Assembly: GCA_004335835.1 (NCBI GenBank)
Contig: RWJK01001567.1
Span: 62,001-126,000 of the forward strand
Length of the DNA stretch: 64,000 nt
Direction of reading: 5' to 3'
Source of the DNA: Scenedesmus sp. ARA3
Lineage: Eukaryota > Chlorophyta > Chlorophyceae > Sphaeropleales > Scenedesmaceae
In this document: positions 12,361 through 55,100 of the stretch, in pieces
Layout: the number at the start of each line of letters is the position of its first letter
Numbering within the stretch: position 1 is the stretch's first letter
Notes under the pieces: generated by a model
What the model saw: the letters and a program-made list of their open reading frames with translations, nothing else
What the model was told of the DNA's origin: nothing
Database searches by the model: none
Program-made: the position numbers and the translations under genes

Positions 12361-15300
12361 ATGGCTTTTGAAGCATACGAGCCCAGCGTAGTTGTTGACG
12401 AGTTTGCGCGCAAGATCGACTCGCTGTGCGTCTGGGAAGACAACCTTATCGCTGGCTTGAGCGATGGCAGCCTGCTGTTCTTCCAGGAGCAGCAGCAGGG
12501 CAGTGAGCAGGGCTCTAGCAGGCGCCTCAGCTCATGGCAGGTGACTCGAGTGCAGAAGAACTTTGGGAAGCGGGGTGTGCAGCAGCTACAGGCTCTCGAG
12601 AACAAGCCGTACCTGCTGAGCTTGTCAGGTGCGCAGCAAGCAGCCTGCAGCAGCAGCAGCGGGATGCTTTGCAAAGGCAGCAGCAGGAGCGGTGTCACCA
12701 GGCACAGCAACAGCTGCATGCACTCTGGATGCTAGAGGCTAGACCGCAATATCAATGGGGTCTTGTTAAGCCTTGAGTAGTTTTGACCACAGGAGCAACA
12801 GGCTTTTACGTCCGATGCTCTCTCTGATGGCAGCTGCGGTGCATGCACCCCTCCACCCGCTCACCTTTGTTGTCAGTTCTCAACCAGCACTACCTAAGCA
12901 TCACCAAGATGGTGTTATACAGCAGCTGCGGCCGCACACATAGCTACTGTAGCATCAGCACTATCGCAGAAGCCAGTTGTAGCGCGTGCAATCCAAGTGC
13001 AGCACAACGCATGCAAGCCCCAAACCTCACAACCACACTACACTGTATACTTCCCATTGTTGCAAGAAAAGACGCCACAGTGAGCACAAGTGCTGCTGCC
13101 ATTGGCACTATACCAACTGCTGCTGCTGCTGCTGCCAGATGATGGTGTGCAGCTGCACCGCCTGCCGGAGCTGCAGCTGGTGTCTGCTGCCAGCCGCACT
13201 GCACGCGGAGCAGCAGCGTTCGCATGGGATGAGGGACGGCAGCTGCTGGCAACAGCAGTCAAGAAGAAGGTGTGTGTATGTGCTGTGGTTGATGAGATTG
13301 TATGCATCTGCTGTTTGTGGAAGTAGGCGGTTGGCGGCAGGCGCAGTGTAGTGTTGCACTCAGCGGTTGCATGGGACGAGGGAGGGCAGCTGCTGGCGAC
13401 AGCAGTCAAGAAGAATGCGTGTGTGCTGCAGTTGTTAAGTTTGTAAGCATCTGCTGTTTGTGGCAGTAGGCGGTTGTCAGCAGGCACAGTAGTATTGCAC
13501 TCAGCATTCGCATGGGACGATGGCAGACAGCTGCTGGCAACAACAGTCAGAAAAGATGGTGTGTGTGCTGCAGTCGGTCACGGCATTGCTGGTTGCTTGT
13601 GGCGGCGGGTTGACAGGCGACAGCAAGCTTTCGGACAACTATAGCTGTACAGCAGGATGTGCCCTTTTGTTGCAGTTGTGTTTTGCTGCTTGATCTGCTG
13701 CCACATCAGCAGTCGGCAGCGCATCAGCAACCACCCTCACACATACCTCACTTTTTGTCACACTTTTTCACCGCCGCGTCCTGGGTCACACTTTTTCCAG
13801 ATCATCAGCCACCAGCTGGACATCGGTCACACTTTCCTGGAGATGACAGAGTACGAGCTGCCGGAGGCGCCCTGCTGCATCACATGGGTGGGGCCCAACA
13901 TACTGCTGGGTGAGCAGAAATTTAAAGTATGTTGATAGGACAAGATGTGTCGCAGCTGCTGCTGTTGCTGTGATGGGCAGCAGCACTGCTGCATCACATG
14001 GGTGGAGCGTAACATACTGCTGGGCGAGCAAAGTGTCACAAAGCACCGTTTCATGTTTATCATCGCACAGATTTTGTGGCAGCTGCTGCTGTTACTGCTG
14101 CATTGACTGTGATGGGCAGCAGCACTGGCGCCTCACCCGGTGGGGCCCAACATACTGCTGGATGAGAAGTCAGTAATTGCAGACTATGTGTCAGGCCCTG
14201 CTGCTGCAATGGCAGGGCACGCTGCTGGATGCTCTCCACTTACATATCACGCCTTGCTTTGTTCTTGCAGCTGCTCCAACCGTGTAACATGTTACATGAC
14301 GCGTCATATAACACAATTAAAATGCATGTGTTTGGGTTATTTCTGCAGGCACGCTCAAAAGCTACTGGCTGATTGTGCCAGCAGCCAGCCAGGCAGTGGA
14401 GGTTCTGCCAGGCACAGTAGTGATGATGTACCAGCCGTATAATATGTTACCAGACATGTCATATAACATAAACACACTGCTATATTGTGTTACTTTTGCA
14501 GGCACGCCCAAGAGCTACTGGCTGATTGTGCCAGCAGCCAGCCAGGCAGTGGAGGTACTGCCAGGCACAGTAGTGATGATGTACCCAGCCGTATATTATG
14601 TTACAAAACATGTCATATAACACAAACACGATGTTACATGTTACATTGTGTTACTTTTGCAGGCACGGCCAAGAGCTACTGGCTGATTGTGCCAGCAGCC
14701 AGCCAGGCAGTGGAGGTACTGCCAGGCACAGTGGTGATGATGTACCCTGCTGTACAACCGCAGCTGCTGTTTGCAGCCGGGAGTCATGCGCCAGTGCTGA
14801 CTCACCTCGCATCAGGTGAGGCACGGCAGCATGCATACTGCATTTGAAAATAGCCATATGTCATGATTGAGGGTGTGGAGTGCCTGTACTGCTTGGGATT
14901 TTGTGGAAAGACACTGTGGCTATGATGTTCCCTGCTGTACAAACGCTGCTGCATGTTGCAGCAGGATTTGTACCGTTCATCTGCGCTGAAATAAGAAGCA
15001 CCCACTGCTCTGCTGCAGGCGAGGCGCTGGTCACCAAAGATGCCATCAGTTACTTCCTGGGCCCTGATGGTAAGCCCTCGCGCAAAACTACACTCAGCTG
15101 GAGCGCGCCGCCGAACGCGCTAGCAGCTGGGCGGCAGTACGTTGCGGCGCTGCTGCCGGGCTGTGTGGAGGTCAAGAGCATCAGCAGGGCAGGTGCAGCC
15201 ACAGCTGCACAGGTGAGAATGTGTTATTGTTGCTATGTTTATCAAACATCTTCTGTTGCATCAGGTGAACAGTTGTTATTTTTGAGTTGTTTTGCATTAC

Positions 15301-16942: not shown

Positions 16943-19900
16943 AGCCGGCGAGCCTGACGAGGCTCTCACACAGTTCAGCATGTGCTCTGAGCCAGACCCG
17001 CTGCTGCTGCTGCGGCTGTACCCTAGCCTTGTGCCCGAAAAGTTCCTGCCGCTGCTGCCAAGCAGTGCATATGGGGAGCCACTGCCTGACTTGGCAGCAG
17101 GAGCAGCAGAGGCTGGCAGCAGCAGCAGCAGCGGCAGCAGCAGTATGAGACGGAAGGGCAGCAGCAAAGCTGACGTGTCGGGTGCAGTGGGTGTGGTTGT
17201 GCCGTACTTGCTGAGTCATCGGACGCGGCTGCTGGCTTCGTTGGAAGAAGCTGCTGCTGCTGCGAGCAAGCAGCAGCAGCAGCAGCAGCAGGGGAAGGAT
17301 GTCAGTTCTGCTGCTGCAGGCCTGACTAACGGCGAGGCAGCAGCAGCAACAAGCAGCAGCAGCAGCAGGCAGCGTAGCAAGCAGGAGCTTGAGCTAGTGG
17401 CAGCAGTCATAGACACAGCCATTTTGCGAGCAATGCTGCTACAGCCGGATAGCGGAGCGCTGCTGCGGCTGCTGCAGCAGACAAACTATGTGGATTTGGA
17501 AGATGGGGAGGCGGTGCTGACGGCTGCGGGGCGTTACGCTGAGCTGGCGGCGTTATACCAATATAACAGGTCAGTAGAGGTGGCCACATTCTTTGAGAGT
17601 GAGCGCAGACCGCAGCCGCAGCAGTCGCAGGCATCACATCAAAGCACACGGGGCACAGTTTGCTTCCTGATCAATACTTTAAATGCGGGCCACTGTTTTG
17701 AAAGCCATATGCGTTGGGCCTGGAAATGTGCTTGTGCCTTTTGTGTGCATGGCTTCGCTGATCATTGAAACCTAATTGTATTATCAATATATCATGAATG
17801 AATAATAATTCCTTAATTCGTAAAACAAAGAGACATTGTGTGGTGTTTGTGCCTGCAGGCGTCACGCGCAGGGCCTGGCGCTGCTGCAGCAGCTGAGTCA
17901 GGGGCCTGAGGGCATGGCTGTTCTTTGTCACAACTCTTTGCAATATATTTCATTCCAATAGTGACAGACTGTTTTGGTGTTTGCCTGCAGGCGTCACGCG
18001 CAGGGGCTGGCGCTGCTGCAGCAGCTGAGTCAGCGCCCTGAGGGCATGCTGGTGCCGCCCAGCGGAGCAGCAGCAGACCTGAAGGGGCTGCCTGGCGTGT
18101 GGGCGGCAGTTAGGTGCGTGTACTGTGTTCAAAAACAAACGGCCATCTGCTTTCCATCATGACTGCTGTTGCGCCAGCCTGCCTCCAAGTGGAGCAGCAG
18201 CAGACCTGAAGGGCCTGCCTGGCGTGTGGGCAGCAGTCAGGTGCGTGTACTGTTTGCCTACTAGATTGTGAAGGCGTGTGATGCTTGTCTGATGTACAGT
18301 CAAGGGGTTGCTGATGGTAGGTGCTGCTTTGGCTTCGCCGGCTTGCCATGCTCCAAACTGGCAGGCTTGACAGGTGCCATGTGTGGCAATTGGCCAGTTG
18401 GCGAGTGCAATGTTCTGTTCTAGCCTGCCTGCCAGCGGAGCAGCAGCAGACCTGAAGGGGCTGCCTGGTGTGTGGGCGGCAGTCAGGTGCGTCACTTGTC
18501 ATGTCTGGTGCAGCGGTGGTGGTGGTAGGTGCTGTGTTGGCCTTGGTGTGCTTGTAATGTACTAAAGTGACAGGCCTGCCTGCATGTGGGCGGCAGACAG
18601 GTGCGTCACTTGCTGGTGATGGCCAGAAGGCAGCTGGTGTTTGTGAGTGCTGCTCTTTGTAGCCTGCCGCCCAGCTGAGCAGCAGCAGACCTGAAGGGCC
18701 TGCCTGGTGTGTGGGCGGCAGTCAGGTGCGTGCAATGTTTGCCTACTAGATTGTTAAGCCGTGCGATGCTTGTCTGATGCATCGTGAAGGGGTTGCTGAT
18801 GGGAGGTGCTGCTTTGGCTTTGCATGGGTGGTGGGTGGGTGGGTGGGTGGGTGCTGGCTGCTGGCCCTGAGGCGGGGCTGGAAGCACAGGGCAGTCTGTA
18901 CAAGTTCACATTGCACCTCTCACAAGCCAACATGATAGTCAAGAAAATGCTCTTGTGTTTTGCAAAAATCGAAAGAAAAAAAATTGAAAAAGACAAAGCT
19001 TCCTCTTGAAATTCTTGGATGCGTGTCACCCCTTTGCGCAGGTACCTGATTGGGATGCAGCCGCAGGACCTGCAGCTGCTGGTGCAGCATACGGGCTGGG
19101 TGCTGGGCGCTGACCCCGAGGCGGGGCGTTGCAGTCCAAAACACGCTTGATAAATGACAACTCAACTGAAATTTATCTGCTGTTGCACCGCTGTGCAGGT
19201 ACCTGATCGACATGCAGCCGCAGGACTTGCAGCTGCTGGTACAGCACGCGGGCTGGGTGCTGACCCTGAAGCGGAGCACTGCAGTCAACAACACGCGTGT
19301 TGAGCAAAAACTTGAATGAAACTTACCTGCTGTTGCACCGCTGTACAGGTACCTGATCAGGTTGCAGCCGCAGGACTTGCAGCTGCTGGTGCAGCATGCA
19401 GGCTGGGTGCTGGCTGCAGGTCACTCCACACACACCTTGATATGACTAACAAATCACTGATACCAATCAATGACTTGCTGTATGTTATTGCTTTGCAGGT
19501 ATCTGATCGGCATGTAGCCGCAGGACCTGCATCTGCTGGTGCAGCACGCCGGCTGGGTGCTCCTCATATACCCATGACAAGACACGAGTCCACGAACATT
19601 TGTATTGTTGTGCCGCAGGTACCTGATCGGCATGCAGCCGCAGGACCTGCAGCTGCTGGTGCAGCATGCGGGCTGGGTGCTGGGCGCTGACCCTGAGGCG
19701 GGGCTGGAGGCGCTGCTGGCGATGAACCCCCCGCTGAAACCCGACTTGGTCATGCCCATTATGCAGGTAGGTGGTTATTGTATGCAAAACGTTTGTGTGT
19801 AGAAACAAGGTTCGGTGTGTGGAAAAGGTTGTGTGTGTTTTTTTTGTCGTTGCATGGTTGGTGGTGCAGTGAAGTAATGTGCTGGTAAAGGTGCTGGTGA

Positions 19901-22078
19901 GTATCGCTATGGTGCTACTATCATCAGCGAAGGTTCAAGGGTCTGGTGTGACTCTGTTGCCTGGCTGTTGATCCCGAGGCGGGGCTGGAGGCGCTGCTGG
20001 TGATGAACCCTCCGCTGAAACCTGACCTGGTCATGCCCATCATGCAGGTAGGTGGTTATTGTGTGCAGAATGGTTTGTTTGTTGAAACAAAGTGTATGGT
20101 GTTGGTTGCGTGTGTTTGTGTTTTTGCCTGGTTGACGGTGGATAGCTCAAAGCAGTGTGCAGGTGATGGAGCACACCAGTACTGCTGTAGTGCTACCATG
20201 ATAGCCAGGGGTGTGCAGGTCTGGTGTCACTCTGTTTGCCTGGGTACATCCTGAGGCGGGGCTGGAGGCGCTGCTGGCGATGAACCCTCCGCTGAAACCC
20301 GACCTGGTCATGCCCATCATGCAGGTAGGGGTGTTTGTTTGCAGGACGTCTGGCTTGACGAAACAAGGTGTATGGTGTTGGTTGCGTGTGTTTGTGTTTT
20401 TGCCTGGGCGCTGGTTCAAAGCTCGAAGCAGTGTGCAGGCAAAGGTGCCCGCCAGCGCCGCTGCGGTGCTGCCATCATTGGCATGGGTTTGCAGGTCTGG
20501 TGTCACTCGGTTTGCCTGCCTTACGCCTCAAGGCAGGGTTGGAGGCGCTGCTGGTCATGAACTTCCCACCAGGGAGCCTTTTGCACTGTGAACTTCCCAA
20601 CCCAGAAAAGCATGTGGCCACCTACGCGGCAGCGTACAACTGATCACTACTGGAGCAGGCACACATCTGCAGTGCGGTGTGTACCTTGCGCCAGCACTGG
20701 ACCTGGGCCTAGTATCACCCACCAGATGTTGTCTACGGACTTTTCACCATGAACAGTAACGCATTAGCACTGTGAACTTCTTGCCCTGCAGGAGCATGCG
20801 CCCACCTACACTGCCGTGTATCTGGAGTCCGCACCTGACCTGGGGCTGGTGACACCAACTGTTATGCACTGTGAACTTCCCACCATGAAATCAAAACACT
20901 GTGAACTTCTTGCCCTGCAGGAGCATGCGCCCACCTACACTGCCGTGTACCTAGAGTCAGCACTCGACCTGGGGCTGGTGTCACCAGCCGTTACGTACTG
21001 TTACCCGCTCACCATGAACTCCATGACACTGTGAACTTCTCGCCTTGCAGGAGCATGCGCCCACCTACACTGCCGTGTACCTGGAGTCGGCACTTGACCT
21101 GGGGCTGGTGTCACCGGGTGAAGTTCACAGCGAGCTGCTGCTGATCTACCTGCACATGGCCCTTGAGGAGGAGCGGGAAGGAGAGCAGAGGTGAGCCTGG
21201 TGTCTTTGGTGTCACTAGTTACACTAGTTACACTAGTATACTGTAAGTCAGGCTGCATGATGCGTGCCGCAGACCGGCTATGGCAGGGTCGGCAGCGCTG
21301 CAGCTTGTACTCTGTAATTTTGCACATCTTGCTTTCACAATATGTGCCGCTGCCACTCATGGGCCAGCTTCCCATTTGGCGTCGAGCACGCAGACGGTTT
21401 CTTCTGATTTCATATGTGCTTGCTTCTGCTGCACCAAAGGGCCACATCCGAAGCTGTTGTCGGCACCTGCCCAAAACCTCATTCAAAGTCCCTTCCCTCT
21501 TCCTTCAAGCGTGCTACCCTGCTGCCTTCTTTCCAACTCCTGCTGCGCTTTTATGCACATGCAGCTCGGCCGCACATGCCCAGCAGCTATCCCTGTCAGA
21601 CCTACTTGTCTCAATGCCCAAGCAGCTGCTGAAGCTCTTCCCTGACACCATTACTGATTTGCGTATGCATCCGCTGCACTAACAGCCACATCCCAAGCTG
21701 CTGTGGTCCACACAAAAGTCTACCGTAACAGCAAGTCCCTAGTGCTTGACTTTGGTACATCTCTAATGTGTGCCGGCCTGCTTCCTGCTTCCTGCTGTGC
21801 TGTCCTGTGTGCAATGTAGCTCTGCGGCACATGCCCGGCAGCTATCCCTGTCAGACCTGCTTGTCTCAAGGCCCCGGCAGCTGCTGAAGCTCTTCCCTGA
21901 TGACAAGGCGCAGTGGGGTGCCCCAACGCCCCGCGCCTCGCAATCCGGCGGCGCTGCTGCTGCTGCTGCTGCTGCTAGCTTTGCAGCTAGCCCGGAGAAG
22001 CAGCAAGAGAGCACGGCGCAGCAAGATGCCGCTGCAGCAGCAGATGATGCAGCAGGAAAGGAAGCACCTGGTCGGCCT

Positions 22079-36527: not shown

Positions 36528-36738
36528 GTGGTGGTGTTGCTACGGCTTTCAAGGTGTTGATAGTGCTGATGGGGCTGCGGGTGCTGAATCCGGGGCCAGC
36601 AGATTGGTTGCTGCTGTTGCTGCCCTTTGTGGGTGCAAGGATCATGTACAGGACAAGGTCTACGCAAGAACTTGTACAAGTTCAGCACTGACAAGCAGCG
36701 CTGGAGCCAAGTGGTGACCAAGGGGTGGGTGGTGGTGG

Positions 36739-36785
<47 letters not shown>

Positions 36786-36935
36786 GTGCTGGCGATCGTG
36801 CTGCTGCTGCCAACGATGGTGCCACTGCTACTGCTCGTGTGGAGCGCAGGGACGGTGGAATTGCAGCTTTTGTTTGGTTGCTTGATTGCTGCAGAGCATG
36901 GTGGTGACCGAGGGGTGGGTGGTGACGCTGCCGCC

Positions 36936-36976
<41 letters not shown>

Positions 36977-39381: not shown

Positions 39382-39413
<32 letters not shown>

Positions 39414-39566
39414 ACGATGATTGGGACCACCAGGCGTCGGTATGTGTACTGCCACAGGTTTGTAGCCTGCTTTTCCTTGTCTTGACGTGCCAAGCGTGGT
39501 GTGGCAAGGCACATGATGACATGTGGGCGCTGGACCTCAAGAGCCACACAGTGAGCCACCACAGCT

Positions 39567-39600
<34 letters not shown>

Positions 39601-42528
39601 TGTCTGCAGCACATGATTGTAGCACCATGCTGGCATCCGTGTTTGACCGCCGGTTTGTAACCCGCTTTTATGTGCCCTGGCAGGCCAACTTTGGTGTCGG
39701 GAAAGTGGGCATGGTGCCCGCAGCATGCCAGCTGCGCTCTTTATACTTGCAATTTAAACTATTGTTATAACGTTACTTTCAAACCTGTGCTGCTGCTGCC
39801 CTGCTGCTGCAGTGGGAGCGCATCAAGAAGGTGGGCATGGCGCCAGGCCCCCGCTGCTCCTTTGCCATGGTGCCACACAAAGCCAGGTGCGTGGCCTGGG
39901 CTGGTTTCTGTGGCTGAACGTTGCTGAAAGGGAGTGCTAGTTGCGCTAGTGTGCTCCGTTGCAATGGTGCCGCACAAGGCCAGGTGCGCTGAGGGGGCGA
40001 GCTGACACTGTTCAAAACAAAATTTGAAGTGCTGTCACCTACTCCTGTGCAGTGGTGCTGAACAAAGCCAGGTGCGCTGATGTTGCTGGTGTTGCCAAGG
40101 TTACGGCTGACGGTTGTTTGCTGCCAGGTTGGTAGGAGGGCAGTTCAAGAAAAGTGCAAGGTTTGGCTGCTGCCTGCTGCTGCTGCTGCTGCTGCTGCTG
40201 CAGGGCGTTCCTGTTTGGCGGCGTGAGTGACAACGAGACGAAGCGCGGCGAGGACCTCAGCAGCGAGTTCCACAACGACCTCTACACCTTCAACTTCAAC
40301 AACAGGTGCGGCCTCAGATGTTTAGTTGTTTTGTTAATTTGTTGTTATGTTTGTTATTTTTGATGCGGCCTGCTCGCCTTCAGCTATGACTTCCACAATG
40401 ACCTCTGCACCTTCAGCCTCAAATATAGGTGTGTAACGGAACTACACAGGGTTTTGAGAAAGAGTTGGAGCAGGGTTGAGCAAGGCAGGTCAGGTCGAGA
40501 TGTGCACAGGCGTTTATTCAAAATTGCATTGGTGTACAGCTCTCACTTGCCCGTTTTGCACTGTTTCCTGCGCTTGCGGTCTGCTGCACTGCAGGCGCTG
40601 GTTTGCTGCGCAGCTACGGCCGCCAAAAGACTACAAGCAGCAGCAAGATGCAGCAGCAGCAGCAGCAGACGGCCAACCACCAGCAGCAGCAGCAGACACA
40701 GGTAGCCAACAACAGCAGCAGCAAGCAGCAGCGGCCAGTAGCAGCAGCAGTAGCAAACCAGCTTGCGGCGCCGGCAGCAGCGGCGATGTCAGCCGGGAGA
40801 TGGCAGCGCTGATGGATGCTGGCCAGGACAAGAACTCAGCTATCTACCAGGCTGCGGTGCGCATCCAGTCTCGCTTCAGGTGAGAAAGAGCTTGGTAATG
40901 GACACTCGCGCGGTGGGATGCAGGCAGAGTTGCATGCAACCACATGCAGGAGCTGCTGCCGCTGAAAATGTGCAGCACAGCCGTGATAGCAGCTGCGGCA
41001 TTTGCATCAGAGGTTTGGCAGCTCTGATGGATGCTGGCCAGGACAAGAACTCTGCCATCTACAGGGCTGCAGTGCCCATCCAGTCTAGGGTCAGGTGAGA
41101 AAGGGCTTGGTGATGCACATTCACGCAGTGGGATGCAGGCAGAGATGCATGCAACCACATGCAGGAGCTGCTGCTGCTCTGGTGTGTAGGCAAGGAAAAT
41201 GCAGCATGCCCATGTCAGCAGCTGCAATCTGTTGAGTCAGAGCTTTGCATCATCATCAGTGTTGGCAGCATGTTGCCAATCCAGCCATGGCGATGCGTTG
41301 CCTGCAGGGCCTACATGGTGCGCAAGGCGTACAAACCGTACCAGCTGAAGAAAGCTGATACCTTGCTGCACCTGCTGACACTCAATAAACAAATGATCCG
41401 GATTCCAAATGGTTTGATGCCAACGCAGGGGCTACGTGGTGCGCAAGGCCTACAAGCTGTACCAGCTGGAACACTGCTGACACTTGGCAGTGTTCTTGAA
41501 ACTTCTTCTATTCCTTTACTTAAGAATACAACCCTTCTGCTCCTTTTGTGTGCAGGGGCTACGTGGTGCGCAAGGCGTACAAGCTGTACCAGCTGGGCGG
41601 CGTGGTCAGCGAGATCCTGTACAGCCCGGCTGCCTACGGCCTGGACATGAGCGCAAAGAACATGCCCAAGCCGCGCGCACGCATCAGCCCCCAGGTGCGC
41701 GCTGCGGCTGCTGTTACAGACATAGGTTCTGCACATTCAATCAAATTTGATCATGAAATGGCTTGAAATTGTGGTGTATCTCGGTTGTAAGTTTGCAGCC
41801 TACGGCCTGGACATGAGCGCAAAAAACATGCCCAAGCCGCGCGCACGCATCAGCCCCCAGGTGCGCGCTGCGGCTGATGATGAGAATGTCAACAGTATAC
41901 ATTGAAATGCTGTCAGCAACACACTTCATTGACACATGTGCTGCTGGCAGCTGCAGTTTGAACATGCCCAAGCCTTGCGCACACATCAGCCTTGAGGTGC
42001 GCGCTGCCGCCAATGACAGTCCTGCAATCGGGACTGGACATCTGTGATCTGCGGCTGCCTGCCTGCCTGCCTGCCAACTGGCCATATGCTGACCCACTGT
42101 TTATACTGCCCGCTGGCTTGCAGGATGCTGTTGCCCATTTATAGCCTGCATGTTGGCTCAGACGCCTGTCACCTCTTACACCTGCCTGCCTTCCTGCCAG
42201 CATGCACAATCGCCTGCCGGCTGCTTGCCTCAAACATATCTTCATCATGAGTCGTTCACTCGTCAGCGCCACCATTGGATCTGTGAGCTTGCAGGTTGCT
42301 GTTGCCGGCAACACGCTGTGGCTGCTGGGCGGCGTGGTGGAAGTCGGGGAGTCAGAAATAACATTAGATGACATGTGGAGCCTTGACCTGGTCAAACTTG
42401 ATGGCTGGCAGCTGGTCAAAGAGAACACGGTCGGGGAGGAGGTCTTCAAAGCAGCAGCAGCAAAGGCGGGTGCTGCAGGCAGCGACGACAGCGAATGGGA
42501 GGATGCATCTTCTGATGAGGAGGATTGA
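35141..42528 (+). CDS. KLHDC4: Kelch-repeat protein, KLHDC4-like, with an IQ motif
   Basis: Exons: 35141-35359, 35988-36053, 36358-36485, 36979-37083, 37798-37947, 38458-38608, 39287-39367, 39813-39886, 40204-40305, 40595-40879, 41556-41694, 42295-42528; 577 aa in phase. The N-terminus is Lys-rich (GSGRDKKKKAKEKKDG), as in KLHDC4, followed by DDIDALLAKF, CEPPSARVNASFVP, then Kelch blades recognisable by GG pairs: IIMFGGEF, YVWGGEFSSPN, LLFGGFYDNGRD, YMYGGYVK, FLFGGVSDNE, LWLLGG. Between the last blades lie a Gln/Ala-rich insert and an IQ motif (IQSRFRGYVVRKAYKLYQ). The tail is acidic (DDSEWEDASSDEED). Family knowledge: KLHDC4 and its yeast relative Kel-type proteins are conserved but poorly characterised; a nuclear/nucleolar role is likely from the basic N-terminus and acidic tail, which is inference. 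The start is the first ATG after CAG repeats in the 5'UTR. Confidence 0.9.
35416..35870 (+). repeat. three or four decoy copies of the 3' edge of Kelch exon 1
   Basis: GDEDDIDALLAKF through KQLKAGQ plus GTGGGC-type donor ends at about 35486, 35614 and 35740 after the real end at 35359: spacings 127, 128 and 126 nt. A fourth, poor copy is at about 35837-35870. Confidence 0.92.
36290..36357 (+). repeat. CTG/CTC tract ending in a 3' splice site
   Basis: CTG units with CTC interruptions end in the CAG acceptor of the exon at 36358. Confidence 0.85.
36630..36978 (+). repeat. decoy copy of the 3' edge of Kelch exon 3 and long CTG tracts
   Basis: NLYKFSTDKQRWSQVVTKG-type reading at 36630-36726 repeats the exon that ends at 36485; a short third copy of the junction (GGTGACCGAGGGGTGGGTGG) is at 36900. 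CTG tracts at 36739-36790 and 36944-36978 flank them, the latter ending in the acceptor of exon 36979. Confidence 0.88.
37158..37400 (+). repeat. two decoy copies of the 3' edge of Kelch exon 4
   Basis: FIHKSFMYVWGGEFSSPNQE-type segments with CCG|GTGAG/GTGTG junctions at about 37160-37242 and 37320-37398; the real exon ends at 37083. Spacing is about 158 nt each. Confidence 0.92.
37660..37735 (+). repeat. decoy copy of the 5' edge of Kelch exon 5
   Basis: CTGCAG acceptor and RDLWRLDLSTNEWDQLPLKG-like reading, 132 nt before the real exon at 37798. Confidence 0.9.
38163..38390 (+). repeat. two decoy copies of the 5' edge of Kelch exon 6
   Basis: GTACTACAACGACCTGTGGG starts at about 38163 and 38294; the real exon starts at 38458. 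Confidence 0.92.
38647..38942 (+). repeat. three decoy copies of the 3' edge of Kelch exon 6
   Basis: CQMMVAGDVLYMYGGYVK reading plus GTGGGA/GTGGGC/GTGCGC donors at about 38650-38708, 38760-38816 and 38884-38940. Confidence 0.92.
39099..39262 (+). repeat. two decoy copies of the 5' edge of Kelch exon 7
   Basis: CACGCAGGACGAGAATGACA (39090) and CATGCAGGACAAGGATGACG (39203) precede the real CATGCAG junction at 39286; both read D-x-D(D/N)-E-D-E-LEHGKA. Confidence 0.9.
39387..39600 (+). repeat. decoy copy of the 3' edge of Kelch exon 7 with CAG tracts
   Basis: KAHDDMWALDLKSHT plus GTGAGC recurs at 39506-39552; each copy is followed by a GCAGCA tract (39388-39412 and 39569-39600). Confidence 0.9.
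39950..40080 (+). repeat. two decoy copies of the 3' edge of Kelch exon 8
   Basis: TGGTGC(C)GCACAA-GCCAGGTGCG-type segments at about 39964-39985 and 40052-40077 repeat the end of the exon at 39886. Confidence 0.8.
40381..40430 (+). repeat. decoy copy of the 3' edge of Kelch exon 9
   Basis: DFHNDLCTFSLKYR-like reading followed by GTGTGT, repeating the end of the exon at 40305. Confidence 0.8.
41020..41100 (+). repeat. decoy copy of the 3' edge of Kelch exon 10
   Basis: ALMDAGQDKNSAIYRAAVPI reading with AG|GTGAGA junction; the real exon ends at 40879. Confidence 0.92.
41307..41475 (+). repeat. two decoy copies of the 5' edge of Kelch exon 11 (IQ exon)
   Basis: CAGGGCCTACATGGTGCGCA (about 41307) and CAGGGGCTACGTGGTGCGCA (about 41427) precede the real copy at 41556. 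Confidence 0.9.
41795..42005 (+). repeat. two decoy copies of the 3' edge of Kelch exon 11
   Basis: AYGLDMSAKNMPKPRARISP reading with CAG|GTGCGC at about 41797-41861, and a diverged one at 41960-41998. Confidence 0.92.
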
Positions 42529-45635: not shown

Positions 45636-45833
45636 TCACTTGCGCTTGGTGCTGCGCTTGTTGCCTGCCGCCTTGCCTCCGGCCTGCTTGCCCGCCTGCT
45701 GCCCTGTAGGTGGCCTGCCTGCTGCTGCGCCTGCGCGCTGGCTCTGCCCAGCCATCTGCAGCTTGCCCTTCAGCAGCTGCTTGCGCAGCTCCTCAGCACC
45801 CGCCTCATCACCTGTTTTTATTCCAAACAAATA

Positions 45834-45868
<35 letters not shown>

Positions 45869-48800
45869 GGATGGTCGAACGAGCTTGGTTTTGATGCTGC
45901 GCTGTGGTCACATGATGCTTGGGCATAGAAAGGCTCCAGCGCGTGGTGCACCTTCACCCCTGCCATCTGCTGCATCAAGCTCTTGGGAATAATCCCCCTA
46001 TGGGCCTCTCGTTGGCTCCTGACTGGGGTTCCCACTCCTCGTTTGAGTGGAGCATGTAATGTATTGTCACAACAAAATGCAACATGTAGCATAACAAGTA
46101 ACAACAATGTAACAAGATAAAGCGTACCTGTCTTGTTTTTCAGCTCAATCACCAGCGCAAAGAAGGGCTCAAGTGCAGGGTGCACCTTGACTCCTGCCAT
46201 CTGCTGCATCAGGCTCAGCGCCTTCTCAGCCCACACAAGCGCGTCACCCCACCTGCGCAGCAGCAGCAGCAGCAATCATGCTAAGTTTGTTATTTGTTCA
46301 GCAGGCTGACGAAGTGGGGCCCAGAGTCAAGCATTCCTCTGATCCAAGACAGCTGAAGCTAGCTTGTGTGAGTCAGCATCACTACCCACAACAACCGATG
46401 CATGCCACAACCGCTGCAGGAAAGCATACAAAACAACGCAGAACGGCAAAACTCACCGCTGCGCCTCTCCCAGCACGTCAGCCAGGGTGCGTGCCAGCAT
46501 CACGCCGCTCTGGTTGACCGGGCCCNNNNNNNNNNNNNNNNNNNNNNNNNNNNNNNNNNNNNNNNNNNNNNNNNNNNNNNNNNNNNNNNNNNNNNNNNNN
46601 NNNNNNNNNNNNNNNNNNNNNNNNNNNNNNNNNNNNNNNNNNNNNNNNNNNNNNNNNNNNNNNNNNNNNNNNNNNNNNNNNNNNCCCAGCACGTCAGCCA
46701 GGGTGCGTGCCAGCATCACGCCGCTCTGGTTGACCGGGCCCTCGCTCTGGCGCTCGTTGATGCTGTACAGCTGCTCAAACAGGGAGGCGGACGTCTCCAG
46801 GTTGCCCGCCTGGCGGTGGCAGGTGGCCAGCGCGGCCATTGCGGAGGCTGCATTCAAAAATAAGGTGCAGGTGACATTGCAGACAGCATTTAGGCAGACA
46901 CACTGGCAGCAGCCAAAGGGTGAGAGGCAGGATACCAAGAAAGAGGTCTCCTGCTTGCCCGCCTGGCGGTGGCAGGTGGCCAGCGTAGCCATGGCAGAGG
47001 CTGCAATTAAATAATAGGTGCAGAGGCACAAAATGCGGCAGACAGCAGGTAATCAGAGGTGCAGGACAGTCAGGCAGACGTCTCCAGGTTGCCCGCCTGG
47101 CGGTGGCAGGTGGCCAGCGCAGCCATGGCAGAGGCTGCAGCAAGGTGGACATGATGCAGAGGCACAACAGGCAGCAGACATCAAGCAGTCAGAGGTGCAG
47201 GAGAGTAAGGCAAAGAGGCTTGGTGGGTTGCCCGCCTGGCGGTGGCAGGTGGCCAGCGCAGCCATGGCGGAGGCTGCAGCTGGAACATGAATTGCATTAG
47301 TCATGCAGGCGCAAGGCGGCAGCTGCACATTTGCAGCACTGATGCCAACAGAGTCATGGTATGAGTTTTCAGCTGGATTCACTCACAGGCCTCGGGGGTC
47401 CCCTCCCGAAACTTGTCCATGGCCAGGGTCCACTACTACTTGCTAGTGGGCATGTTGGTGTGCACTGATGCCAATGAGTTCAGTGGTGATAAGTGAAGCT
47501 TTATGGGTGGAATGTATGTACTCACAGGCCTCGGGCGTCTCCTCCCCAAACTTGTCCACGGCCAGGGCGTGTGCGCCCTGCAGCACCTCCACGGCGCGGT
47601 CAAAGGCCTTGGCCTTCATCTCAAGACGCGCCAGCTCAATCTGCAGAGAGCATACAAAAGTGGATGGTTTCACTTTGGTGGAAGCGAGCAGCAAGCAACC
47701 TTTTAAAGTGCCAGCAACGGCAGTACATGCATACAAGCACAGCCTCAGCAGCCATCTGCACTCCACAAGCAAGAAGCATACCAATCCCACCACTTTCACG
47801 CACTTCAAACCCTTAAACAATCAAACATGCTCAGATTACGCACCTGCACGCGGATGCTGGCGGTGTGTGCGCGCGTGCTGTCAATCGCCAGCATGGCAGC
47901 CATCTCAGGGCTGCTGGCCTGCTTGGCTGCTGCTGCTGCTGCTGCCGCCGCCTCCTCACTGCCCGGCTTGAGGCCCTTGGCCACCTCCTCGGCCTCCTTG
48001 TCATCAGCAACCTGAAAATAACAGTTAAATTACAGTGTCACGACAGTGGTTGGTAACAGCTGGGCAAGAATGCGGTGTAAAACTGGATAGCAACATCACT
48101 GCATACAATTGAGAATGATCAGGACGATGAGAGGTGCAAGCCCTTTTGGATGTGCAAAGGATGAGCACAAAATGTGATACTGTTGCACTGTTATATAACA
48201 GTCTCACCTTCTTGATTGACTCGATGCTGCCATTCAGCAGCTCCCTTGCAGCATCACGGTCACCCAGCTGGTCAAGAGCATCCACGAGGTTACCACGTGC
48301 CAGTGTTGTGGTGGCGTGTGCTACGCCAAAGTGCTGCAGGGCCACGTCCATGGCCTTCTGGTGCAGCTGCTTGCCCTGCAAAAGCAACACAAGTAACAGC
48401 TTTTGAATAGTGGTGCGACAGCTGGCCAGCCAGTAAGAGGTGTGTGCCACGCCAAAGTGCTGCAGGGCCAAGTCCATGGCCTTCTGGTGCAGCTGCTTGC
48501 CCTGCAAATGTAACACAAGTAACAGCTTTTGAATAGTGGTGCGACAGATGGACAGCCAGTGGGAGGCGTGTGCCACACCAAAGTGCTGCAGGGCCATGTC
48601 CATGGCCTTCTGGTGCAGCTGCTTGCCCTGCAGGAAAAGTAACAAAGTAACAGCGTTTGAAATGTGGGCGCGACAGACGGTGAGGTGCAGGCAAGCCGGT
48701 GACCCAGCTGCAGCAACGACACTATGACCAGGGTAAGGAAACCCCTGTGTATACAAAAATCCTGGTCGTTCAACATGTACAGCAATTGTTTGCTAACGGT

Positions 48801-49951
48801 AACAATCAGGGGAGCTGCATCAGCACGAGCTATCATCTGCTGCTGCCGCACCTCCTCGTGCAGCTCCTGCTTGCGCAGCACCGCGCCCATGTTGTTGGAC
48901 AGCTTGATGTACAGCGCGTGCTGCCCGCCGGCCTCAGCAGCGTCCAGCGCAACCTGCAACCAAGATAAAGCACAATGCAGAGGATACATGTGAGATGTTG
49001 TTGGACAGCTTGATGTACAGCGCGTGCTGCCCGCCGGCCTCCGCAGCGTCCAGCGCAACCTGCAACCAAGATGAAGCACAATGCAGAGGATACATGTGAG
49101 ATGTTGTTGGACAGCTTGATGTACAGCGCGTGCTGCCCGCCGGCCTCAGCAGCGTCCAGCGCAACCTGCAACCCAGATGAAGCACAATGCAGGGGATACA
49201 TGTGAGATGTTGTTGGACAGCTTGATGTACAGCGCGTGCTGCCCGTCAGCCTCCGCAGCATCCAGCGCAACCTGCAATTAAGATCAAGCACAATGCAGAG
49301 GATACATGTGAGATGTTGTTGGACGGCTTGATGTACAGCGCGTGCTGCCCGCCGGCCTCAGCAGCGTCCAGCGCAACCTGAGGATGAGCGGAATGACATG
49401 ATAGGCTATGCATGTGAGTAGCCTGCCAATTTTGAGGTGTTGCACTGCAGCTCACACGCCAGCTTTGACACCACCTGCCCCAGCAGCGTGCTCTGCGGCC
49501 CATGTATCATCAGCCCGTGTATCAGCAAAAGCCGCTGCAGACAAAAGCAAGCGCTACATTGTTTTAACCCTTTAATGCTGCCACACCACAGCTAGCTGTG
49601 CAGCACTGCAAAAGCTGCTGCGCTCACCTGCAGCGCGCCTGTGGCGTCCACCAGCTTGTCACTGGCATACAGCTGCTGGGCAAATCGACGTTTCAAACAC
49701 ATGTGTAGCACGTTACTAGCGCTGCCACCTGCCTTACCTGCAGCGCTTCCTTTGCGTCCACCAGCTTGTCACTGGCGTACAGCTGCTGGGCAAGTTGACA
49801 TTTCGAACACATTTGTAACATGTTACTAACGCTGCTACCTGCCCCACCTGCAGCGCTCCCTTTGCGTCCACCAGCTTGTCGCTGGCGTACAGCATGTCAG
49901 CCAGGCTGCTGGCCACCTCTGCAATGATCTCCGGCCGAGCAAGCCCGGGCT

Positions 49952-49990
<39 letters not shown>

Positions 49991-52900
49991 AGTTCAGCAT
50001 CATGAGCATCATGAGCCAGGCTGCTGGCCACGTCCCCGCAATGATCTCCGGCCGCGCCAGCCCAGGCTGCGGCAGCAGCAGCAACAGTGTGACACTTGGT
50101 GCGTTATAGAAATGCCATGCAACAGGAGCAGCAGCAGCAGCAGCAGCGGCGGCAGCGCACGATGCTGCAAGCAAGTCTGCCCTCGTGCTAGACCACCCGT
50201 CTGGACATCACAAAGACCAAGCATGTTTGACTCTTTGTGCTTACACTGTCTTCAGCTGGTGCCAAGACCCACACAGACCTGCGTTCAGCCAAACTCAACA
50301 ATCAACGCTGCACTGGACCTATTAAGCTCACAACATGCCGCACCTTGGCTGTGACTGCCTCCATCGCCTTGCGCTGGAACTTCTCTGCCGCGTCCTTGTT
50401 GTGCTGCACGTTCCATGCCACAGCAGCCTGGCGCATCAGCTGCTCAGCCTCCTCCTCGGCAGGGCTCAGCTGCGGCTCTGCGCATATACAAGTGCATATA
50501 CAAGCAGATTAGAAACAAAAAATGTCCGGGAAAGTCAAGAGCAGCACTGATGCAAGGCGCATCAGCTGCTCAGCCTCCTCCTCGGCAGGGCTCAGCTGCA
50601 GCTCTGCGTACAAAATATGAGGATCACAGATAACAGCATGAGAAAGGTGGAAGCAGCAGTTGTGGGAGGCGCAACAGCGGCTCAGCCTCCTCCTCAGAAG
50701 GGCTCAGCTGGGGCTCTGCGTACATAGTAGCAGACAGGTGGACAAACATAGTCTGTGGTGAGGGTGCCTGAAACAGTGCGTCGGCTACTCAGCCTCCTCC
50801 TCGGCAGGGCTCAGCTGCGGATACACAGTTGAAATGAGGATACAAATGAGTGCGATGGACGACTAGATTGCAGCAGCGGTCCTGGAGAGGGTTGCACGCA
50901 ATGAGAGGCGAAAAAATGATGCTCCCCTAACACGTGCCCCCCGACCCTTGACTTGGAAAAGTAACACAAAGCAACAGCATTCAAATGCGCACCCTCAGCC
51001 GCCTGCTGCTCAAACAGCACCACGTTGCCATCATCATCCAACATGCCGATGTCTTGGCCCGAATCGTCCAGCACACGGCAACCAGCACCCCACAATGAAA
51101 TTTACACAAAAGTAACATCATTAAAATCCTCACCCTCAGCCGCCTGCTGCTCAAACAGCACCACGTTGCCATCATCGTCCAGCATGCCGATCTCCTGGCC
51201 CGCATCATCCAGCACACAACAACCAGCGCCCACACTAAAAAGTAACACAAAAGTAACATCATTCAAACGCGCACCCTCAGCTGCCTGCTGCTCAAACAGC
51301 ACCACGATGCCATCGTCGTCCAGCATGCCGATTTCCTGGCCCGCATCGTCCAGCACACGGCAACCAGCACCCCACAAAGAAATAACACAAAAGTAACATC
51401 ATTCAAACGCGCACCCTCAGCTGCCTGCTGCTCAAACAGCACCACGTTGCCATCATCATCCAGCATGCCAATTTCCTGGCCCGCATCGTCCAGCACGCGG
51501 CCGTCTGCGTGCAGCGTGCCCAGCGTGTTGCCTGCCTCATCAACAACGGGCAGCGTCTCGCCCTCTGCCAGCTCAATCAGGCCCTCGCCATCCTGCAAGC
51601 AAGCACAATCAGATTATGTTGTTGTCAATATGCTGGATTAGAAGAATCATCAGCCTTTCCTCCCACTGGCAGGCTCTTGCTTTAGGCCAGCATGAGGCCG
51701 GCTGTATCCTGCAAGCTAGTCAACAAGGAAACACAGCAGTGCATGATGGTGTGTCAGCAGGTGCAGCGTGCCCAGCGGTGTTGCCTGCCTCATCCACCCA
51801 TGGCAGCGTCCCGCCCTCTGCCAGCTCTATCAGGCCCTCGCCCTCCTGCAAGCAAGCACAGTCAGAATAAATGCTTGTCAGCATGCTAGATTACAAGAAT
51901 CATCAGCCTTCCTAACCACTGGCAGGCACTTGCTCCTAGCCAGCATGATGAACTCTGCATCCTGCAAGCAGATGGACAAGAAGACATATTGCAGTGCACA
52001 ATGGCTTGTCAGCAGGTGCAGCGTGCCCAGCGTGTTGCCTGCCTCGTCGACCACAGGCAGCGTCTCGCCCTCGGCCAGCTCAATCAGACCCTCGCCGTCC
52101 TGCAAGCAAGTTGGTCAACAAGAAAAACACAGAAGTGCATCATGGCTTGTCAGCATGTGCAGTGTGCCCAGCGTGTTGCCTGCCTCATCAACCACTGGCA
52201 GCGTCTCGCCCTCTGCCAGCTCAATCAAGCCCTCGCCGTCCTGCAAGCAGGCAAGCAATATGTGTGTGAGGTGCTATAGTACAAGCACCATATGCTTTTC
52301 ACCACTGGCAGGCTCTTGCTCTTCGCCTGCATGAGGCCCGCTGCATCCTGCAAGCTAGTTAACAAGAAGACATATTGCAGCGCATCACGGTGCGTCAGCA
52401 GGTGCAGCGTGCCCAGCGTGTTGCCTGCCTCGTCAACCACAGGCAGCGTCTCACCCTCTGCCAGCTCAATCAGGCCCTCGCCATCCTGCAAGCAAACACA
52501 GTCGAATCAAATGCGTGTAAGTATGCTAGAGTACAAGATTTCTCCTTTCCAACCACAGGCAGGTTTTTGCTCTTGGCCAGCATGATGCCCGCTGCATCCT
52601 GCAAGCAAGTTGGTCAACACAAGAAAACACAGCAGTGCATCATGGCTTGTCAGCAGGTGCAGCGTGCCCAGCGTGTTGCCTGCCTCGTCCACCACTGGCA
52701 GCGTCTCACCCTCTGCCAGCTCAATCAGGCCCTCGCCATCCTGCAAGCAAATCAGGCAAAATGATATTGAGATTCAACGCAGCATTGCCTGCCTCGTCCA
52801 CCACTGGCAGCGTCTCGCCCTCTGCCAGATCAATCAGTCCCTCGCCGTCCTGCAAGCAGATGAGCAGTGCAAGCATGTTGATAAAACATAGTACAGATGC

Positions 52901-55100
52901 CCAACCCATCGACCACATGCAGGGTCTCCCCTTCAGCCAGCTCAATCAGCCGTTCGCCGTCCTGCAAGCAAGCACAATAAGAATAAATGCTTGTCAGTAT
53001 GCTGGATTAGAATAATCATAAGCCATTCCAACCACTGGCAGGCTCTTGCTCTTGGCTAGCATGATCAACTCTGCATCCTGCAAGCAGATAGAACGGCAGA
53101 CATACAGCAGCGCATCATGGCTTGTCAGCAGGTGCAGCGTGCCCAGCGTGTTGCCTGCCTCGTCAACCACTGGCAGCGTCTCGCCCTCTGCCAGCTCAAT
53201 CAGGCCCTCGCCATCCTGCAAACAGATGAAGCATGACGCAGCAGAAGTGTGTTAGGGCAGGTAGATGCCTCGGCCGCTACAGGCAGGCTCTCTGCCAGCT
53301 CTATCAGACCCTTGCCGTCCTGCAAGCAGGCACAGTCAAAGTGAATGCTTGTAAGCATGCTGGAGTTGAGCAATTAGATGCATCAGCCTTTCCAACCACG
53401 GGGCAGTTGTTGCTCTTCGCCAGCATGATGCCCGCTGCTTCCTGCAAGCTCAAACTCACCTCGCCATCTGCCTCCTCTGCTGCTGCTCCCTCGGCATCGT
53501 CAGCAGCTGCTGCCGCTGCCTCCTCTGCAGCAGGTGCTGCTGCTTCAGCTGCTGCTGCTGCCTCCGGCACTGCAGCTGGCTCTTCAACTGCTGCTGCTGC
53601 TGGCTCCTCTGCTGCTGCTGGTGCTGCGTCCTGAGTAGCTACTGGCTCCTCTACTGCTGATGATGCTGGCTCCTGTGCTGCTGCTGGTGCAGGTGTGGCT
53701 TCTGCTGCAGGAGCTGCTGCTGCTGCTGCAGGTGCAGGAGTGACAGGTGCTGCAGGCTCATCAGCCACCTCTGCTGCTGCTGCTGCTGCTGGGGCTGCTG
53801 CCTCAGGCTCTGCTGCTGCTGCTACTGGTGCTGCTGCTGCTGCTGGTGGTGGTGCAGCAACCTCCTGTGCTGCTGGAGCTGCTGGTGGTGCTGCAGCAAC
53901 AGGCTCTACTACTGCAGGTGCTGCTGCTGCTGGGGCTGCTGCTGCTGGGGCTGCTGCTGCTACAGCGGCAGGCATAGCTGCAGCTGCAGCTGGCACGCCG
54001 TTTGCAACTGGCGCTGCAGCAGCCTCAACCACAGGTGCAGCAGCGGGTTTCGGTGCTGCAGGCTTCGCTGCTGGTGCTGCTGGCGCGGCTGCTGCCTTGG
54101 GCTTAGCCACAGGCGCTGGTGCTGCGTCTGTGGCGGCAGGAGCTGCTGCTGCTGCTGCTGCTGCAGGTGTTGCTGCTGCTGCTGCCCTCCTGCTTGCTGC
54201 GCCACCAGTTGAGGAGCTGCGTGATGCAGGCCTGCTGCTGCTGCCAGTGCCTGAGCTGCTCCTGCGGGCTGTGCTGCTGCTGTGGGTGCCGGCTGCCTTG
54301 GCTGCGCCACCACCGCTGCTGCTGGTCCTGCAAGCGGGAGCAGTACAAAGGGCGAAGTGCAAGAAGCAGTACATGGCGGTACAGTTGAGCGGTGAGCAGC
54401 AGGTGGTCATGCTTAAAGTCAGGTGGCTATTGCCAGGGCCGTGTGCAGCATCTGCATGTTGATAGCTGTTTAACCAGGATATGTTAGAGCTGATTGTGCA
54501 GGGAATGGGTGCTATTTGTGGCTCATGCAGCTGCTGCAGCAGCAGCCGCCAGCTAGCCTGACAGCCTGACGCAACCTGACAGCAATAGCTGCCAATTTTC
54601 GCCCAAAACATATGCCCCATTGGCGCAGCTGCAGGTTTCAGACCGCGTTCAAGACGTCTGCTGCAGATAGTCCAAGTAGCTGTGTTAAGGAGTTGACTCG
54701 ATGCACTGCAATTGCTGTAAAATCAGGGTCCCCACCTGGTTGGTGCCTTGGCGCTGCCTGCCTTTGCAGCTGGCCTTGCAGCTGCTGCTGGCCTGCTGGA
54801 TGCTTTCTTAGCCGGCTCGGGTGCTGCTTTCTTGCCTGACATCATCACTCCCACGCCTGCTGCAATCACGGTGACCGCTGCTACTGCCGCACCAGCAATC
54901 AGGCCTACATTGGGGCCGGACTTGGCCTGCTTGGCGGCTGGCGCCTTCTTAGCAGCGACGGGAGTCGGCTTGTAGATAGGTGCAGGGCGAGGTGCAACTT
55001 CAACAGGCGTGAGGGCTGCATCTGGTGCGGGTGCGACCGCTGGTGTGTCGTGTGCCAGAGGCTGCTGCAGTGCAGCAGGGGCTGGTGTTGAGGATGCCAT
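45636..55100 (-). CDS. membrane-anchored TPR protein with Ala/Pro-rich region, function unknown
   Basis: Minus-strand exons, 5' to 3': 55100-54736, 54327-53460, 51592-51415, 50477-50344, 49949-49848, 49534-49475, 48953-48852, 48375-48208, 48011-47844, 47640-47526, 46847 to 46457 (across a gap), 46252-46128, 45811-45636. If the duplicated gap flank is counted once, the phase closes at 911 aa. Residues about 66-87 form one transmembrane helix (GLIAGAAVAAVTVIAAGVGV) after a Pro/Ala/Lys leader. Then come about 290 residues of Ala/Pro/Glu low complexity, a Gly/Asp repeat block (LDDAGQEIGMLDDDGNVVLF) and a long TPR array of kinesin-light-chain flavour (ALDAAEAGGQHALYIKLSNN, LARGNLVDALDQLGDRDAA, AFDRAVEVLQGAHALAVDKF, ALATCHRQAGNLETSASLFE). 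The tail is basic. I do not recognise a named orthologue; a plastid or endomembrane anchor with a soluble TPR face is inference. The donor of exon 49534-49475 could lie about 30 nt further on. Confidence 0.75.
45930..45995 (-). repeat. decoy copy of the 3' edge of TPR-gene exon 46252-46128
   Basis: SLMQQMAGVKVHHALEPF-type minus-strand reading repeats the exon 5' half about 210 nt downstream in gene sense; it is followed by diverged sequence. Confidence 0.85.
46526..46684. other. assembly gap (159 N) flanked by identical 57-nt sequence
   Basis: Positions 46469-46525 and 46685-46741 are identical. The gap lies inside a coding exon of the minus-strand TPR gene, whose frame closes if one copy of the flank is removed together with the Ns. 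Confidence 0.95.
46945..47280 (-). repeat. three decoy copies of the 5' edge of TPR-gene exon 11
   Basis: Minus-strand ASAMA-x-LATCHRQAGN readings with a CTGCAG-type acceptor at about 47002-46950, 47137-47085 and 47275-47225; the real copy begins at 46847. Confidence 0.9.
47384..47430 (-). repeat. decoy copy of the 3' edge of TPR-gene exon 10
   Basis: Minus-strand KFREGTPEAC-like reading and GTGAGT donor repeat the end of the exon at 47526. Confidence 0.8.
48425..48632 (-). repeat. two decoy copies of the 5' edge of TPR-gene exon 8
   Basis: GKQLHQKAMD-(L/M)-ALQHFGVAH minus-strand readings at about 48504-48440 and 48631-48565; the real exon starts at 48375. Spacing is about 128 nt. Confidence 0.92.
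48985..49379 (-). repeat. four decoy copies of the 5' edge of TPR-gene exon 7, about 106-nt period
   Basis: Acceptor plus VALDAAEAGGQHALYIKLSN (minus strand) ends at plus positions of about 49061, 49167, 49272 and 49378 besides the real one at 48953; spacings are about 108, 106, 105 and 106. Units are nearly identical, including the intronic ACATGTATCC segment. Confidence 0.95.
49625..49795 (-). repeat. two decoy copies of the 3' edge of TPR-gene exon 5
   Basis: YASDKLVDA-(T/K)-GALQ minus-strand readings at about 49680-49627 and 49790-49738, each with a CAG|GT donor. Confidence 0.9.
49950..50070 (-). repeat. (CTG)n on the minus strand and decoy copy of the 5' edge of TPR-gene exon 5
   Basis: (CAG)n on the plus strand at 49951-49987 reads (CTG)nCAG on the minus strand and ends in the acceptor of exon 49949. 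A copy of the exon start (GLARPEIIAGTWPAAWL-like) lies at about 50068-50012. Confidence 0.88.
50555..50822 (-). repeat. three decoy copies of the 5' edge of TPR-gene exon 4
   Basis: ELQLSPAEEEAEQLMR-type minus-strand readings at about 50604-50556, 50717-50678 and 50822-50788, shortening with distance. Confidence 0.88.
50990..51365 (-). repeat. three decoy copies of the 3' edge of TPR-gene exon 3
   Basis: VLDDAGQEIGMLDDDGNVVL plus FEQQAAEG minus-strand readings end at about 50993, 51133 and 51275 besides the real end at 51415; spacings are about 140 nt and the donor GTGCGC or GTGAGG is kept. Confidence 0.93.
51762..53320 (-). repeat. about nine decoy copies of the 5' edge of TPR-gene exon 3
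   Basis: CAG acceptor plus DGEGLIELAEGETLPVVDEA (minus strand) recurs with 5' ends near plus 51845, 52099, 52240, 52487, 52742, 52848, 52960, 53218 and 53318. Several extend to GNTLGTLH and then leave the exon without a donor. Intronic parts repeat too (the MLAKSKSLPVV-like reading near the end of exon 2). Confidence 0.93.

Follow-up and report, generated by a model that had tools for sequence, protein, structure and literature searches.

Junction-anchored arrays of exon-edge copies in the introns of four genes of the green alga Scenedesmus sp. ARA3

Tandem sequence families change their copy number by unequal crossing-over and concerted evolution, both of which act through homology. Where introns are concerned, the closest described case is the RdRp gene of potato, in which, according to PMC4974935, one direct duplication of the 3′ side of an intron and the 5′ side of an exon, splice signals included, made a new intron by way of a cryptic donor. 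In intron gain of the Rogers type, as related in the same source, an exon segment containing AGGT is duplicated and the protein remains unchanged, while Introners are reported to insert copies of themselves into many genes (PMC9860276) and reshape introns at scale through the copying of sequence. The present work concerns a stretch of 64,000 bases of Scenedesmus sp. ARA3 (hereafter the window; bases 62001-126000 of contig C1179, in an assembly of 87.27 Mb and 1567 contigs), in which the introns of four genes carry numerous extra copies of the edges of the flanking exons. Such copies, termed decoys below, usually keep the splice site of the edge from which they derive.

The arrays formed by these decoys share features with each of the systems above, but coincide with none of them. 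As in potato RdRp, the copies are direct duplicates of the intron 3′ side and the exon 5′ side with splice signals, and as in Rogers-type gain the protein is unchanged. Unlike the single potato event, however, dozens of arrays lengthen existing introns here, with the modelled intron number and the protein unaltered, and unlike Rogers-type gain the units include intron sequence and no new intron was modelled. With Introners the arrays have in common that sequence copying reshapes introns at scale; the difference is that the copies are local, and two arrays used as queries against the 87 Mb assembly found nothing but their own place. Compared with tandem families, the homology is a coding-exon fragment lying within introns, where one member is functional by its position and the rest look neutral. 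A search for dense junction-anchored arrays in the open-licence literature (titles and the beginnings of abstracts) returned nothing beyond the single potato case, which is no proof of absence.

Four genes (A, B, C and E, with 44 introns in all; Table 1) were modelled by hand as spliced, in-frame exons. The models of C and E are fixed by near-identical homologues in Tetradesmus obliquus: the protein of gene C is 99% identical to P0001, with exon 7 ending at 39367, and that of gene E is 98% identical to OEZ85_014298 (P0241), so that the alga is probably T. obliquus or a very near relative. For gene B the relatives are only 49-59% identical and the start of exon 4 is uncertain, and for gene A the CNH match is weak (E 2e-10), the model otherwise resting on the open frame and the splice signals. 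The models keep one intron at each array, and C and E align to the T. obliquus proteins without decoy segments, except for an insert in P0001 at intron 7 that reads as an effect of gene prediction. Our automatic gene finder at first mistook decoys for exons, and was later applied only outside the four hand-modelled genes.

Self-BLAST of the window (pairs less than 2 kb apart, at least 40 bases long, simple repeats excluded) gave 124 same-strand local pairs covering 19,087 of the 64,000 bases, against a single inverted pair; nearly all lie within 12.3-53.5 kb, and bases 1-8000 contain none. Each exon was then compared by BLAST with its two flanking introns, an edge being taken as reached within 5 nt, which yielded 108 exon-derived copies in 35 of the 44 introns. 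Upstream of exons, 51 copies extend to the 5′ edge (acceptor), two are internal and none reaches the 3′ edge; downstream, 48 extend to the 3′ edge (donor), seven are internal and none reaches the 5′ edge. That is to say, 99 of the 108 copies touch the expected splice junction, and whole-exon copies with both splice sites, such as the duplication of mutually exclusive or cassette exons produces, are absent (0/108). An earlier reading made from the sequence alone (the sequence-only reading) had described exactly this one-sidedness, together with copies in nearly every intron and a near-absence of whole-exon copies, and the pattern is borne out more strongly than it was stated there. Nine copies reach neither edge. 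The figure of some 30 arrays in that reading was low: the edge-reaching copies group into 43 arrays, of which 28 contain at least two decoys. The unit has a median length of 133 bases (5-95% range 97-255), with a median exonic part of 65, and 29 of the 99 unit lengths are divisible by three. As the sequence-only reading also held, copies go with longer introns, the median being 600 bases with copies (n=35) and 204 without (n=9).

A neutral explanation had been offered for this pattern, namely that tandem duplications arise anywhere, that those crossing one junction only lengthen the intron and survive, and that the copies then decay neutrally. For comparison with random placement, the observed unit lengths were laid uniformly on exons and decoy-free introns, and exon-internal and multi-junction events were purged; the model then expects 33% of arrays to be intron-only and 67% to cross one junction. 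Among the 134 tandem pairs of the four genes (at least 40 bases, E up to 1e-5, within 2.5 kb, simple repeats excluded) none was intron-only, and zero intron-only arrays in 43 has a probability of 3.6e-8 under the placement model, arrays being assumed independent. Visible homology was present in only 107 of 218 junction-flank pairs, so that detection is imperfect, and the probability becomes about 1e-4 (hand arithmetic) if half of the intron-only arrays escape detection. The neutral filter is therefore not enough. Some purging is nevertheless supported too, since duplications across two or more junctions, which without purging should make up 14% of the junction-crossing ones, were never seen (P 0.001; P 0.011 with present intron lengths).

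The differences between decoys and exons bear on what was copied. At codon positions 1, 2 and 3, respectively 0.054, 0.050 and 0.173 of sites differ between a decoy and its resident exon, and the alignments contain 13 insertions or deletions in 7,053 sites. The ratio of replacement to synonymous differences per site (pN/pS) over all 108 copies is 0.194 (95% interval 0.157-0.238, bootstrap over arrays), and none of 2000 bootstraps reaches 0.5; 21 of the 108 have no replacement change whatever, yet their pS is 0.185. Variants common to several decoys of one array (arrays of at least three) comprise 39 synonymous and 4 replacement changes. Changes private to one decoy, taken from arrays of at least four, are spread evenly over the codon (22/778, 24/795 and 24/788 at positions 1, 2 and 3), and the decoys therefore decay neutrally; they look unconstrained once made, and their ancestors functional. 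Mutation bias or coding constraint as the cause of the third-position differences was considered and is disfavoured by this evenness, though smaller arrays do show a third-position excess.

The exon-side and intron-side limits of homology tell a further part of the story. Exon-side breakpoints agree within 3 nt in 67 of 119 decoy pairs of the same array, compared with 470 of 4732 pairs between arrays, which is what a single founding event per array would lead one to expect. On the intron side, there are 68 unit pairs that are at least 95% identical over 40 nt of exon, and in 25 of them no homology could be detected across the neighbouring 45 nt of intron. The outermost decoys lack a homologous tail in 15 of 28 arrays; among the other units this is so for 24 of 84 (Fisher p 0.022). 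In the 106-base array of E exon 6, for example, the exon part of the outermost decoy is 98.5% identical and the AG of this decoy is kept, while its intron tail has no detectable homology to the other units (z 2.4). Contiguous tandem duplication alone does not give such tails, whereas exchange inside the exon segment can. Neutral duplication with filtering only thus agrees with the lack of whole exons, with the even private changes in arrays of at least four decoys and with unit lengths that are not multiples of three, and the apparent neutrality of decoys once made (arrays of at least four), along with some purging, is a part of that account that finds support. Its expectations of about one third intron-only arrays, of a pN/pS near 0.5 and of intron flanks copied along with the exon edges all fail, the last often, and as a complete explanation it is unlikely.

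Concerted evolution offers another route to these tails. Shared variation beyond what copying and decay would give is present, in the 39:4 shared variants, the pN/pS of 0.194 and the 25 of 68 exon-bounded pairs. If it acted within one chromosome, with the resident exon overwriting the exon parts of decoys by gene conversion and the intron parts being spared, both the loss of homology past the junction and the near-absence of shared replacement changes would be explained. Copying from the resident exon, however, implies a synonymous divergence about twice the replacement divergence, whereas about fivefold is observed; exchange with diverged functional haplotypes is therefore favoured. In a toy simulation of decoy evolution (3 decoys, 60 runs per setting), copy-and-decay gave a pN/pS of 0.45 and 0.56 and a diverged functional source 0.11 and 0.19, while swaps of role within an array gave 0.53-0.77, that is, above 0.5 in all three settings. 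Conversion confined to a single chromosome is accordingly considered quite unlikely.

The best fit is an exon-anchored exchange with diverged functional copies combined with splicing by exon definition, to which a probability of about 0.5 is assigned. An array would be founded by one illegitimate tandem duplication across a single splice junction, with a typical unit of 133 bases of which about 65 are exonic. The protein would still be made, as splicing would use the site adjoining the complete exon; the extra edge would possess a splice site but no partner across an exon, so that under exon definition it would be ignored and would only lengthen the intron. Within fast-changing introns, the duplicated exon segment would then form a conserved island of homology, at which unequal crossing-over or conversion between a decoy and the functional edge of a different chromosome may gain, lose or swap copies. 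Every such exchange would leave the former functional exon edge, together with its own intron tail, as a decoy, which would afterwards decay neutrally, and whole-exon duplications with both sites, or those disrupting the coding sequence, would be purged. The exchange with diverged haplotypes, exon definition, purging and use of the outer sites are the parts of this scheme that we infer.

Most decoys retain their splice signal: of the 51 acceptor decoys 46 have AG, and of the 48 donor decoys 45 have GT. Taken together, the site scores of decoys do not differ from those of real sites (p 0.32 for acceptors, 0.55 for donors). The sequence-only reading had named a second possibility, that decoys are regulated alternative sites. 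Such sites would be maintained to tune splicing or exon recognition, and in favour of this may be counted the lack of a difference in group scores, the AG or GT at 91 of 99 decoys and the lack of intron-only arrays in the four genes. The retention of AG and GT is, however, about what neutral decay would give (about 0.91, computed by hand from a pN of 0.046), the private changes of larger arrays are unconstrained, shared replacement changes are nearly absent and the presence of copies differs from gene to gene. Use of a decoy would bring a stop codon, a frameshift or both in 94 of 99 cases, so that the outer sites would have to be those that make functional mRNA. Regulation thus found no support and is very unlikely. 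As for how outer sites would be chosen, a partner donor scoring at least at the lower quartile of real sites, within 300 nt or up to the real exon, is found for none of the 51 acceptor decoys, in keeping with the exon definition proposed here; PMC4378016 suggests that Volvox and Chlamydomonas, whose introns are short, splice by intron definition, which sets the proposal for the present genes apart from those algae.

Direct comparison with T. obliquus adds two residues of note. The decoy at 38651-38708 encodes threonine, as does P0001, where the resident exon of gene C has valine, and the decoy at 41016-41094 encodes arginine, again as P0001, where the resident exon has glutamine. P0001 itself carries WERVKKWERIKK, which resembles a tandem copy of the exon 8 edge, that is, a decoy taken as exon in another assembly. 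Upstream of C exon 8 in this window the exon-against-intron BLAST detected no such copy, so that arrays probably vary between strains.

A number of observations weigh against the exchange model and must be set beside its support. The private changes become uneven when smaller arrays are admitted: 49/1351, 43/1368 and 62/1358 at positions 1, 2 and 3 with at least three decoys, and 66/1879, 64/1896 and 105/1890 with at least two; the 88 synonymous against 99 replacement private variants in arrays of at least three likewise exceed the neutral synonymous share. This position-3 excess would be read as an addition of allelic variants that happen to be seen once. The two residues matching P0001 may be ancestral states, and the haplotype divergence of about 0.15-0.19 at synonymous sites is deduced, not seen: in the 87 Mb assembly, the gene C protein matches its own place and two weak Kelch relatives only, and one DNA stretch each of genes A and E matches its own place only, so that a second haplotype was not encountered by these queries. 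The z cut-off for flank homology also passes 46 of 535 unrelated flanks. Site by site, a decoy scores at least as well as its own real site for only 15 of 51 acceptors, the figure for donors being 31 of 48. When the cut is relaxed to the 10th percentile, a donor does turn up for 5 of 51 acceptor decoys, and donor decoys have an upstream acceptor-like site in 22 of 48 cases at the lower quartile and in 42 of 48 at the 10th percentile, which makes the argument from missing partners weak on that side. Pairing across the exon would be the simplest rule selecting the outer sites, the choice of site itself being drawn from protein conservation. The nine copies that touch neither edge have been mentioned. 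Some genes, moreover, carry few copies or none, for which the exchange model gives no explanation: the predicted gene at 781-10358 has no exon-edge copy in 16 predicted introns. This copy-free gene model adjoins copy-rich genes, and genes therefore differ strongly in copy content. A mosaic-site test on four arrays found 13 of 21 site pairs incompatible at B exon 3 (permutation p 0.39) and few informative sites elsewhere, with three at A exon 9 and one in each of the other two arrays.

The same pattern was looked for in 227 kb outside the four genes, on the same contig and 13 others (39 bases of a fourteenth were set aside). Here 189 direct local pairs stand against 6 inverted ones, 12 of the 13 other contigs hold at least one local pair, and pairs cover 0-31% of each stretch. 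The models were automatic and noisier: 19 genes with 222 introns, copies occurring in 40 introns. The 60 copies comprise 22 of an upstream 5′ edge, 23 of a downstream 3′ edge, 12 internal ones and 3 contrary ones, one of the last being a whole predicted exon of 46 bases. Of the 89 arrays in this sequence, 52 are in contact with a predicted exon, a further 6 appear to be coding and 31 belong to neither class; 20 of those 31 were judged by eye, which gave 13 with a splice site beside coding-like sequence missed by the finder, 3 that look non-coding and 4 ambiguous. Non-coding arrays thus exist, probably as a minority.

This recurrence on other contigs also bears on the suspicion that the arrays are artefacts, with divergent haplotypes or reads chained in series by the assembler. 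The synonymous divergence does look allelic, and within E exon 10 an N gap at 46526-46684 has an exact 57-base repeat on both sides, which is probably an assembly scar separate from the arrays. The copies, for their part, have private mutations and joins of exon interior to intron interior with common breakpoints, and WERVKKWERIKK in P0001 looks like a similar copy in another assembly; an artefactual origin is highly improbable.

Table 1. Genes and main decoy arrays in the window (positions count from its first base).
Feature	Position	Strand	Evidence or remark
Gene A, VPS39/VAM6-like (CNH domain), 14 exons	12361..24815	+	In-frame spliced model and CNH match; copies in 12/13 introns
Two acceptor-edge decoys upstream of A exon 4 (14663-14815)	14349..14662	+	Exon-against-intron BLAST
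Three donor-edge decoys downstream of A exon 8	18114..18725	+	All from exon position 63
Four acceptor-edge decoys upstream of A exon 9	19042..19618	+	Intron tails differ
Two donor-edge decoys downstream of A exon 9	19767..20324	+	In addition, internal fragment 20531-20562
Two clear acceptor-edge decoys upstream of A exon 10	20792..21050	+	Two more, diverged, at 20609-20719
Gene B, flavin amine oxidase, 10 exons	25144..31994	+	Alignment to P0121, P0122, P0125; copies in 6/9 introns
Seven donor-edge decoys downstream of B exon 3	26080..27785	+	Six from exon position 55, one from 64
Three donor-edge decoys downstream of B exon 4	28203..28664	+	All from exon position 38
Three donor-edge decoys downstream of B exon 8	30362..30738	+	All from exon position 41
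Gene C, KLHDC4-type Kelch protein, 12 exons	35141..42528	+	T. obliquus P0001; copies in 10/11 introns
Two acceptor-edge decoys upstream of C exon 6	38164..38457	+	One with GG for AG
Three donor-edge decoys downstream of C exon 6	38609..38939	+	First with the T residue of P0001
Two acceptor-edge decoys upstream of C exon 7	39100..39286	+	
Donor-edge decoy of C exon 10	41016..41094	+	R of P0001 where the exon has Q
Gene E, TPR protein, 12 exons	45636..55100	-	T. obliquus P0241; copies in 7/11 introns
Nine acceptor-edge decoys upstream of E exon 3 (51592-51415)	51593..53319	-	
Three donor-edge decoys downstream of E exon 3	50993..51414	-	
Four acceptor-edge decoys upstream of E exon 6	48954..49377	-	Period 106; each ends at exon position 65
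Two acceptor-edge decoys upstream of E exon 7	48376..48627	-	
Three acceptor-edge decoys upstream of E exon 10	46848..47273	-	

Several further features of the window were recorded. The acceptor decoys before E exon 3, at 51593-53450, are of two alternating kinds, the main one and a second that is more diverged and reads DAAGIMLAKSKNLPVVGK. A 12-base coding minisatellite (Gly-Ser-Thr-Thr repeats) lies at 31770-31925, in the last exon of gene B. Downstream of the Kelch gene, at 43422-44072, lies a small open frame with MVKKKVGGAHRYKALQ; in Scenedesmus sp. PABB004 the KLHDC4 protein (P0002) ends in a similar sequence, whether by a true fusion or by an error of the gene model. The PABB004 matches to KLHDC4 (P0002) and to the amine oxidase (P0122) are both recorded with a contig of 131,036 bases, which suggests that the neighbourhood at 25144-42528 is conserved. 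In the copy-free gene model, 781-4126 is the firmer part, and its product is presumably TOG/CLASP-like; at 7700-10600 on the forward strand there are cysteine-rich, repeat-like open frames interspersed with CTG runs. Neither an Rfam scan nor a tRNA scan of the window gave a hit.

The growth of introns without transposons is an open question, to which this genome contributes a dense, local route that can be verified in sequence. In Tetradesmus obliquus the mean intron measures 462 bases, as against 230-302 in three other Sphaeropleales, and its larger genome has been attributed to non-coding regions (PMC5966456). The arrays are also natural tests of splice-site choice, in which the competing sites are similar in strength and the conserved protein results only from use of the outer ones, and gene predictors are likely to be misled by decoys, as our own finder was. 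A broader and more tentative idea, which we rate as somewhat less probable than its negation, is that exon edges anchor recombination and thereby feed functional alleles, once retired, into introns, which would become neutral archives of the past coding alleles of the species: haplotypes with unalignable introns would exchange only inside exons, and each unequal exchange would demote the edge of one haplotype. If the copies are retired alleles, one assembled genome keeps a readable record of past coding variation, and intron growth, with part of genome size, would come from allelic diversity and exon-definition splicing rather than from transposons.

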